Below, one piece after another: positions 11,990 through 40,601 of a DNA stretch of 64,000 nucleotides (position 1 is the stretch's first letter; every line of letters starts with the position of its first letter). The notes beneath the pieces are model-generated. The model saw nothing but the letters and a program-made list of their open reading frames with translations, made no database searches and was not told the DNA's origin. The DNA is from Defluviitalea saccharophila (lineage in GTDB: Bacteria > Bacillota > Clostridia > Lachnospirales > Defluviitaleaceae): contig NZ_CP121687.1 in the NCBI RefSeq assembly GCF_038396635.1, positions 992,001-1,056,000 of the forward strand, in the 5' to 3' direction. Both the position numbers and the translations under genes were made by a program.

Positions 11990-12030
11990 AAAGAAGAGCT
12001 GGACTTCAAATAGAAGTTCAGCTCTTCTTT
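11990..12030. terminator. Bidirectional terminator
   Basis: Stem AAAGAAGAGCT (11990-12000)/AGCTCTTCTTT (12020-12030), extended inward by GACTT/AAGT, with A and T runs on the two sides. Ends yjfB and the convergent DUF6873 gene. Confidence 0.87.
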
Positions 12031-12032
12031 GC

Positions 12033-12725
12033 TTAAGAAAACGTTAAAATAGATCCTACATCGATCAAAGGATAATTGGAATCATATATGATCTCCAATC
12101 TTTTCCCATGGATAAATCTTCTTATTTTTTCATAGTCAGGATGTTTTGAAATATCCCCTGCAAAGTAGATGTTATCATTAACCCTTCCTCCAGTACCACC
12201 TATAAAACCGTATAATTGCCCGGGCAATAGTATGAATCCTGGCTGAATCAAACATACCTCTATGTCATGGGAAGCCACTGCTTTAGCAATCCCTGCATCC
12301 GATGTTATAATACTGGAATCATCAATGGGAAGGGCTGAACATCGGGTATATCCTTGCTTGACATGAATAATGTTCTTCTTTATTTTTTTCATATCTTCTA
12401 AAATAATCGGTGACGTATAGTTTAAATTGTGAATAAAATGTCTGCCTACCATCAGTCCGTTAAAACTTACAGATTGGGGATATCGATACCCCAACTGATT
12501 TTCTAAGACCTCTATCGGCAAAGAAAAAGGATTCAGTTGATTCTTTATACATTGATACTGTTCCTCTGCCATATATATTTTTTCATCTCCACAAAAAAGG
12601 AATATATCCGGATGATGGTTAATACTTTCATAAACAATATCCAAGGATTGAATTTCTATTACCTCATCTGCCTGACGCAGTAGATTTTTTAGACTATCGT
12701 AAATATTTTGGGATAGAAAGATCAT
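12033..12725 (-). CDS. DUF6873 family protein (GME/amidinotransferase-like fold)
   Basis: A 230-residue soluble protein resembling the DUF6873 family, thought to share the guanidino-group-modifying (GME) pentein fold. The C-terminal half has conserved-looking blocks: CSALPIDDSSIITSDAGIA near residue 148, PGFILLPGQLYGFIGGTGG near residue 178 and AGDISKHPD near 203. No function is established. Its start lies inside the end of the radical SAM gene (32-nt overlap in a different frame), which implies coupled translation and a shared task. The start could be further in; ATG 12725 has a GAGGGAAG site. Confidence 0.78.
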   Translation of the reverse strand: MIFLSQNIYDSLKNLLRQADEVIEIQSLDIVYESINHHPDIFLFCGDEKIYMAEEQYQCIKNQLNPFSLPIEVLENQLGYRYPQSVSFNGLMVGRHFIHNLNYTSPIILEDMKKIKKNIIHVKQGYTRCSALPIDDSSIITSDAGIAKAVASHDIEVCLIQPGFILLPGQLYGFIGGTGGRVNDNIYFAGDISKHPDYEKIRRFIHGKRLEIIYDSNYPLIDVGSILTFS

Positions 12726-13737
12726 TCAGTTTTCTTCCCTCACTTTCAAACACCAGGGAATCTTCTCCCCCGCTTATTCGCTTAAATTGAATGGGGATTC
12801 CCTGTTCTTTTATATGGTTTAAATATTTTCTCTTATGTCCAATCAAGCTTTGATACATCTTCTGGTTAGCACAAATAATAAGAGGCTTATTTCCGTTTTC
12901 TTCATAGATTTTTAAAACAAACTCATTCAGCATCTTTTCCTCAACCAATTGTCTAAAAGCCGGATGATAGGGACCGGCAACGATTCCTTTTCCTAAGTCC
13001 ACCTCTTCTGAAGCCTGCAGTCCTACCCGAAGCACGGTAATGCCAGCTTCATAAAATAAAGGAAGTATCTGACTTGTCCAGGCTATTCCCTCATCTAAAC
13101 TTAAGGGCTGATAGATTCCTTTATAATACATAGTTTCAAGTTCTGTATCTTTCATAATGACTGTGGGATAAATCCTGGTGGTATGAGGCTTCATTGCTAT
13201 TATTTTTTGAGCGGTTTTTATACTCTTATGAAGGGTATCTTTTGGAAGACCTATCATCATTTGAAGTCCCAATTCTATCGGTGTTTTCTTGATATATTCA
13301 ACGGCTCTATACACATCTTCTACCGTATGATTCCTTTTGCTGGTTTCTAATACTTCCTGATCAAGAGACTGTACACCTAGCTCTATTGCTTTTACAGGGT
13401 ATTGGGATAAAAGTTTTAAAATTTCTTCACTAATATAATCCGGTCTGGTAGAAAGCCTTATACCCTCTAATTGATACTTCATGATATATTCTGTTGCCAG
13501 ATCCAGATATTTCTTTTGAATAAGGGGGTGGATGCCTGTAAAACTCCCTCCAAAAAAAGCTATTTCAACACGCTTATCTACATTCGAACCTTCTAAATAA
13601 CTTTCAATATGATGACGTATTTGGCTTTCATCAAATACATCTTTTACACCTGTTATTCTTTTTTGGTTGCAAAACACACAATCATTCGGACAACCTTGAT
13701 GAGAAACAAATATCGGAATAATCATTTTCTTTTTCAT
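12694..13737 (-). CDS. Radical SAM protein, Elp3-like
   Basis: A 347-residue radical SAM enzyme with the 4Fe-4S cluster motif C16-x3-C20-x2-C23 (CPNDCVFC) and FFGGSFTG after it, IELGVQSLDQEVL near residue 117 and MIGLPKDT near residue 161, all as in the Elp3/YtqA group. It lacks the histone-acetyltransferase-like GNAT domain of true Elp3, so a tRNA wobble-modifying role is not certain. It is the upstream partner of the DUF6873 gene, which overlaps its 3' end by 32 nt. Clostridial genomes often call such proteins elongator protein 3-like. Confidence 0.88.
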   Translation of the reverse strand: MKKKMIIPIFVSHQGCPNDCVFCNQKRITGVKDVFDESQIRHHIESYLEGSNVDKRVEIAFFGGSFTGIHPLIQKKYLDLATEYIMKYQLEGIRLSTRPDYISEEILKLLSQYPVKAIELGVQSLDQEVLETSKRNHTVEDVYRAVEYIKKTPIELGLQMMIGLPKDTLHKSIKTAQKIIAMKPHTTRIYPTVIMKDTELETMYYKGIYQPLSLDEGIAWTSQILPLFYEAGITVLRVGLQASEEVDLGKGIVAGPYHPAFRQLVEEKMLNEFVLKIYEENGNKPLIICANQKMYQSLIGHKRKYLNHIKEQGIPIQFKRISGGEDSLVFESEGRKLNDLSIPKYLR

Positions 13738-23825: not shown

Positions 23826-24072
23826 CCAAAAAACACACCTGCAAAACAGGTGTGTTTACTTCATCTCAATACCCAAAATGTCGTTTCCCTGCATTTTGAC
23901 GCCCTAGCTCAAGCTAGGTGGGTGTTCTCACTAGAATTTCTGTCTTCCTCCGCCCAAAGGGAATTATCTTGAGGCCCGGCATCCATTCTAAAATATAGAA
24001 CTCCCAATCGTAATTTGTAGGTTCAAAATAGCAGGTTCGTCGATCATTCCAGGAAATGAGATTGCTTTATTT
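23826..24072 (-). ncRNA. ssrS: 6S RNA
   Basis: Only non-coding DNA lies at 23803-24143. On the minus strand a long rod-like RNA folds. The closing stem pairs ATCTCA (24062-24057) with TGAGAT (23868-23863), CCTGGAATG with CATTTTGGG (nine pairs including G-U), and CCTGC with GCAGG. The 3' part contains AACACCCACCTAGC with a CTAGCTTGAGCTAGG hairpin, matching the 3' side of the 6S central bubble. 6S RNA binds sigma-A RNA polymerase as a promoter mimic and damps transcription in stationary phase. A sigma-A promoter and an intrinsic terminator flank it. Confidence 0.88.
23831..23857 (-). terminator. Terminator of 6S RNA
   Basis: An 11-bp stem AAACACACCTG/CAGGTGTGTTT with a TTTTG loop on the minus strand, followed by TTTGGTTTTT. 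Confidence 0.85.
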
Positions 24073-40429: not shown

Positions 40430-40496
40430 TATCCCTCCCTTCCTTAGTATGATGACATTTCCACTCACCACACTAAAGAAAGAAGCTCTTTAATGT

Positions 40497-40588
40497 ACAG
40501 CGGAAGCGATAAAGTACCGCAGCTAAGTAGCTTTCGTTTAAGGGCAACTTCCCATCCCTTAACACTTAACGCACTTTACCTACTCTGT
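40497..40588 (-). promoter_or_regulatory. Tetrahydrofolate (THF) riboswitch
   Basis: On the minus strand the conserved THF aptamer blocks appear in order: AGAGTAGG (start), GCGTTAAGTG, GGGATGGGAAGTTGCCC, GAACGAAAGC-like ACGAAAGC, GCGGTA and CGCTTCCGCT. P1 pairs ACAG (40588-40585) with CTGT (40500-40497). No U-run terminator follows; downstream CTTTAGT/ACTAAGG can pair next to the ribosome site, so control is probably translational. It governs folT, turning down folate uptake when THF is plentiful. Confidence 0.92.
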
Positions 40589-40601
40589 CATTTTACATGA
40601 C

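Follow-up and report, generated by a model that had tools for sequence, protein, structure and literature searches.

The archaeosine radical SAM (rSAM) enzyme RaSEA works on tRNA with a separate partner, ArcS, which is not a pentein, and the pentein eIF6/Tif6 is a ribosome anti-association factor. The carboxymethylation of tRNA U34 is carried out by the rSAM enzyme Elp3. According to a 2026 study (PMC13315578), acetate released in the acetyl-CoA domain of Elp3 travels in free form to the site of radical chemistry; the residues E207, K302 and Y304 are described there as required and are proposed to position the acetate, and the E207A and K302R mutants are reported as inactive. The gene pair considered here encodes an Elp3-like rSAM protein and a member of the family DUF6873 with a predicted pentein fold, and no published function was found for either. 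Our literature searches returned no paper mentioning DUF6873 or 'GME fold protein', none joining a pentein with radical SAM, and none joining radical SAM, a KH domain and Elp3.

The pair lies in a window of 64,000 nucleotides from Defluviitalea saccharophila (contig NZ_CP121687.1, positions 992,001 to 1,056,000). The features are given below in window coordinates, except for the last line.

12694..13737, (-): P0002, the Elp3-like rSAM gene, 347 aa (PF04055 and PF16199; Elp3 matches in the PDB)
12033..12725, (-): P0001, the DUF6873 gene, partner with a predicted pentein fold, 230 aa (PF21778; AlphaFold2 model)
12694..12725, (-): 32-nt stretch shared by both genes, which read it in different frames (from ORF ends)
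13669..13692, (-): codons of the 4Fe-4S motif C16-x3-C20-x2-C23 of the rSAM protein, present in all 13 rows of alignment A2
12697..12945, core about 12778-12885, (-): C-terminal part of the rSAM protein with a putative KH-like domain, residues 265-347 (profile and model)
12606..12614, (-): codons of H38-P-D40 of DUF6873, with H and D invariant across all 52 rows
12336..12356, (-): codons of Q124-G-Y-x-x-C129-S130 of DUF6873, with Q, G, Y and C invariant
G000:C1:1223628-1224524 and 683932-684828: two MnmL/YtqA-type genes of the host genome, both above the NCBIfam cut-off

On the minus strand the rSAM gene comes first, and its final 32 nt are the first 32 of the DUF6873 gene. ORF ends give the same 32-nt overlap in L002, L003, L007 and L044 and one of 59 nt in L006; in this comparison L002 and L044 may represent one species. 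All six DUF6873 loci found among eight genomes of the host family contain the pair. Its flanking genes look unrelated (aminotransferase, YjfB, VanZ, sugar transferase, hexapeptide transferase), and after the identical protein the best match in a named record is from Defluviitalea phaphyphila (67%). At 11990-12031, where a convergent yjfB-like gene faces the DUF6873 gene, a long and almost perfect inverted repeat (AAAGAAGAGCTG..ACTTC / GAAGT..CAGCTCTTCTTT) was spotted by eye; the repeat scan did not list it, and it is probably a two-way terminator. Elsewhere, the window contains a THF riboswitch (40496-40589, minus strand, 81.7 bits) and a 6S RNA (23866-24058, minus strand, 59 bits).

The two families also occur fused, in both orders. 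Five single-ORF proteins of 581-587 aa (L047, L049, L054, L060 and L067; two are titled Herbinix) carry DUF6873 ahead of the rSAM part, and three of 552-569 aa, from three Omnitrophota genomes, have the rSAM part first; in one example of each order, all three Pfam domains score above cut-off. Each fusion group forms its own branch of the rSAM tree with 100/100 support, and the branches are mutually distant. The opposite domain order of the two groups requires separate origins. An assembly or chimera artefact is ruled out by the occurrence of the fusions in five named assemblies and three further genomes, and a chance overlap of two genes by the fusions together with the genome surveys.

Gene linkage was scored at 80 named loci, the best of 583, retrieved via the motif V[KN]QGY..C. 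Nineteen of the 80 are linked: five are fused, nine have DUF6873 followed by rSAM, and five show the reverse order; L075 was counted as linked despite 1.35 kb and an opposite-strand ORF in between. Because the loci were selected through this motif and as the best of 583, both linkage and motif invariance are overstated in this set. Thirty-six genomes were hand-picked from it, of which 33 scored positive and three (G307, G316 and G326) negative. The eight Omnitrophota genomes with DUF6873 comprise three with the fusion, four with adjacent genes and one in which about 12 kb of the same contig separate the two genes. In most Clostridia the two genes are unlinked: none of the 30 best DUF6873 loci of the class has a P0002 match within 1.5 kb, and adjacency was seen in G000, G239 and G257 among the 155 genomes of the class that have both. 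Judged by motif, rnc adjoins the rSAM gene in 15 of 30 loci, smc in 6 and DUF6873 in 3.

Unlinked DUF6873 genes, in named loci among L055-L120, often lie between Hsp33/methyltransferase-like genes and YtxC/DUF445/thrS/infC-rpmI-rplT-like genes, names that were assigned from the look of the sequence. The YtxC-like neighbour, named in the same way, recurs in many loci, and a role in sporulation was considered; the pair is also present in Omnitrophota. DUF6873 occurs in three plasmid records: in the one read with annotation the rSAM gene is not adjacent, and a second has no annotated feature in that stretch. Viral contigs yielded one homologue (L186, IMG/VR, 34% identity), which may be host DNA.

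A survey of 291 Clostridia genomes found DUF6873 in 158 and the rSAM gene, at a threshold of E<=1e-40, in 182. Both are present in 155 genomes, DUF6873 only in 3, rSAM only in 27 and neither in 106 (one of the DUF6873-only genomes is positive at no better than E 7e-4, the value recorded for G117). The Fisher p value for this joint occurrence is 4e-49 with kinship disregarded. Counted by family, 40 have both, 35 neither, 4 rSAM only and none DUF6873 only, and when DUF6873 was shuffled within families, at least 155 joint genomes arose in 1 of 20,000 trials (mean 147.6). Among 145 Omnitrophota genomes, the identical eight carry DUF6873 and rSAM; two more have rSAM matches at ~1e-33 and ~1e-35, which were treated as paralogues. 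DUF6873 is thus almost never found without this rSAM, and the rSAM can occur without DUF6873. Twenty-seven of the 182 rSAM-bearing genomes have no DUF6873, so in some of these the rSAM may work by itself. The families f60 (4 of 6 genomes rSAM only) and f67 (G172, G193, G235 and G289 rSAM only) retain the rSAM but mostly lack DUF6873 and are useful natural controls.

Because of the opposite-order fusions, the occurrence of both gene orders and the co-occurrence, the two proteins very probably work together. The first-pass annotation had proposed such a joint function from the 32-nt overlap in different frames; the ORF coordinates agree with the overlap, and the same three findings bear the proposal out. 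It had also set against itself the prospect of genes that lie apart and do not co-occur. Apart they are, in most Clostridia, yet co-occurrence is nearly complete (155 of 158).

P0002 has the CxxxCxxC motif and PF04055 (7.4e-21), which place it in the radical SAM superfamily, and matches PF16199, Radical_SAM_C, at 3.7e-19. Elp3 chains are its best sequence matches in the PDB (2.3e-33 with a profile). The model of a fused homologue, with a pLDDT of 92.4 and a pTM of 0.91 over 581 residues, superimposes its rSAM part on yeast Elp3 bound to tRNA with a Z-score of 24.6 over 283 residues at 2.9 A; the Elp3-like folds matched by this model include non-RNA rSAM enzymes. No GNAT model of Pfam matches P0002 or two fused homologues, so the description of an Elp3-like enzyme devoid of this domain, given already in the first-pass annotation, is upheld by Pfam, the PDB sequence matches and the fold comparison alike. 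The NCBIfam list for P0002 is headed by the RNA-modifying families MnmL and Elp3. P0002 is not the MnmL of its genome, which has two better MnmL genes elsewhere (361 and 328 bits, above cut-off); several other Clostridia also carry two MnmL/YtqA-type genes. MnmL is present in 125 of the 182 rSAM-bearing genomes vs 66 of the 109 others, and its presence does not exclude the rSAM (MnmL-positive genomes total about 190: 191 by hand list, 190 by tally).

The acetate-tunnel residues of Elp3 were located through the alignment to 6ia8 (del1-19), which is offset by 16, so that its E191, K286 and Y288 fit E207, K302 and Y304 of the M. infernus numbering. The corresponding residues in the rSAM family are S96, R188 and Y190 in 13 of 13 rows; two of the three differ. 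Because two of the residues proposed to hold the acetate are replaced (Glu by Ser, Lys by Arg), the rSAM probably does not repeat the reaction of Elp3 itself.

The C-terminal region of P0002 occupies the place of the GNAT domain of Elp3. With a profile of its 75-100 residues (A7), all 12 PDB chains retrieved at E<=10 are proteins with KH domains, led by IGF2BP1 at E 0.0012; a profile from fewer sequences retrieved KH proteins in 5 of 7 chains. The E-values of the KH-like matches are individually weak. Across 39 members, Pfam finds KH_1 in 8 and RNase_E_G_Thio also in 8, the latter with a slightly better best E-value. In the model of the fused homologue, the C-terminus folds as beta-alpha-alpha-beta-beta, and a conserved glycine separates its two helices. 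Against a KH domain, most sequences have GxxR or GxxK in the loop where GxxG is expected. The structural alignment to Elp3 extends as far as residue 456 of Elp3 and would thereby include part of GNAT. The profile evidence favours a KH domain over a truncated GNAT, and the region reads as a putative KH-like RNA-binding domain.

P0001 matches PF21778, DUF6873, over residues 4-227 (3.5e-67, 226.5 bits; cut-off 27). Its AlphaFold2 model (pLDDT 97.7, pTM 0.93) has a predicted pentein fold, a five-fold beta-beta-alpha-beta propeller: the best matches are DDAH (Z 12.9), ArgZ (12.1), eIF6 (11.8) and PAD (11.6), with amidinotransferases also among them, and Foldseek pairs it with DDAH at 4.4e-6. In a viral fold library, three entries fall below E 0.001: two amidinotransferases of phages and a protein with no name. 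NCBI calls a family member from Persicobacter 'DUF6873 family GME fold protein', in line with this assignment and with the pentein-like label of the first-pass annotation. A PDB sequence search with DUF6873 gave chance matches only. Q124, G125, Y126 and C129 are invariant in 17 of 17 rows of alignment A1, none of which was selected by that motif; the same residues are present in 52 of 52 rows of A3, of which 51 were retrieved via the motif. H38, D40, Y82, N89, D143, D222 and G224 are likewise invariant in 52 of 52 rows. Judged by the order of the strands, the conserved residues would sit at the first-strand starts of several repeats, around the central channel.

Taken together, the pair is best read as an RNA-modifying rSAM enzyme, probably acting on tRNA, of a new Elp3-like type. 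We consider it reasonably probable that both proteins belong as subunits to a single radical enzyme that modifies RNA, a KH/Elp3-type rSAM with a docked pentein. The computed basis comprises gene coupling, fusion, co-occurrence, both folds, the KH-like profile match and the loss of the Glu and Lys of Elp3. The rSAM subunit would combine an Elp3-type core and Radical_SAM_C with a KH-like domain that replaces the acetyltransferase domain of Elp3. RNA is the likely substrate because of the Elp3 core and the KH-like domain, which raises what the first-pass annotation had listed as one possible target; the rnc motif beside the rSAM gene at half of the 30 loci also speaks for RNA. By analogy with Elp3 and MnmL, the RNA bound would most likely be tRNA, and a 5'-deoxyadenosyl radical generated by the rSAM would lead to modification of a base. 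DUF6873 is predicted to dock on the rSAM, as suggested by the pTM of the fused model, and would add a second conserved pocket in the pentein channel. In this presumed division of labour, the pocket may bind or prepare a small co-substrate, or else process the product. More tentatively, the Elp3-like rSAM may have a KH domain and a pentein subunit as replacements for the acetyltransferase, with the pentein channel feeding the radical a small co-substrate other than acetate, giving an undescribed base modification in Clostridia and Omnitrophota.

The role of the pentein subunit could be conceived differently. As a non-catalytic, eIF6-like scaffold, DUF6873 would guide the rSAM to the ribosome or rRNA and leave all chemistry to it. 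The eIF6 fold is nearly as close as that of DDAH (11.8 vs 12.9), a conserved cysteine at the pentein hydrolase position is absent, and unlinked DUF6873 genes often lie near the presumed thrS, infC, rpmI and rplT homologues; however, the seven residues from H38 to G224 that are invariant in all 52 rows go beyond what a scaffold would appear to need, and we regard this role as unlikely. Even less probable is an active GME-type enzyme working on a guanidino or amidino group that the rSAM makes or uses, be it in arginine, a peptide or RNA. DDAH, ArgZ, PAD and the amidinotransferases are the best fold matches, and C129 is invariant in rows not selected by its motif, but no conserved cysteine exists near the DUF6873 C-terminus (any cysteine after position 212 occurs in 7 of 52 rows, scattered), where a DDAH-like ORF in L194 has GGLTC at the nucleophile position. 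By hand alignment, the His of the HLK motif of that ORF, at the place of the third-repeat catalytic His of pentein hydrolases and amidinotransferases, appears to fall on the invariant Gln124, and hhalign found no sequence-level match between DUF6873 and the ORF (probability 0.7%). Because the canonical C-terminal nucleophile is missing, DDAH-type guanidine hydrolase activity is not supported by the sequences, and neither is the suggestion of the first-pass annotation that the protein could act on a guanidino group.

The pair might also be directed at a peptide, a protein or a metabolite instead of RNA, given that many similarly folded rSAM relatives act on small molecules or peptides. Elp3 is clearly ahead of these in the structure comparison, however, MnmL and Elp3 lead the NCBIfam list, and the C-terminal domain is KH-like, so that a non-RNA target is very improbable.

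Read as one enzyme, the two orphan families become a single RNA-modification system open to experiment, and its Elp3-like core appears to have switched to another supplier of co-substrate. Both families are widespread in the sampled Clostridia (DUF6873 in 158 and the rSAM in 182 of 291 genomes), and the opposite-order fusions offer single polypeptides ready for reconstitution.

Compared with known systems, the DUF6873 protein shares its predicted fold with DDAH and the other pentein enzymes of guanidino groups (rmsd 3.3, 203 aligned residues), but has neither their conserved C-terminal cysteine nor a sequence match to them. The fold is shared to a similar extent with eIF6/Tif6 (187 aligned residues), which differs in being a ribosome factor. 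On the side of the rSAM, the match to RaSEA is weak (TIGR01210, 35.9 bits; cut-off 212). MnmL/YtqA has the same type of core and is the top NCBIfam match of P0002, which at 99.1 bits nevertheless stays below the TIGR01212 cut-off of 180. Elp3 (TIGR01211; PDB 8asw, 6ia8) provides the best structural match to the core, and the Tyr of its K-x-Y motif is retained as Y190. P0002, however, scores 88.7 bits against a TIGR01211 cut-off of 350, its family has S96 and R188 in the places of E207 and K302, and in lieu of GNAT it has a KH-like C-terminus and a separate pentein partner.
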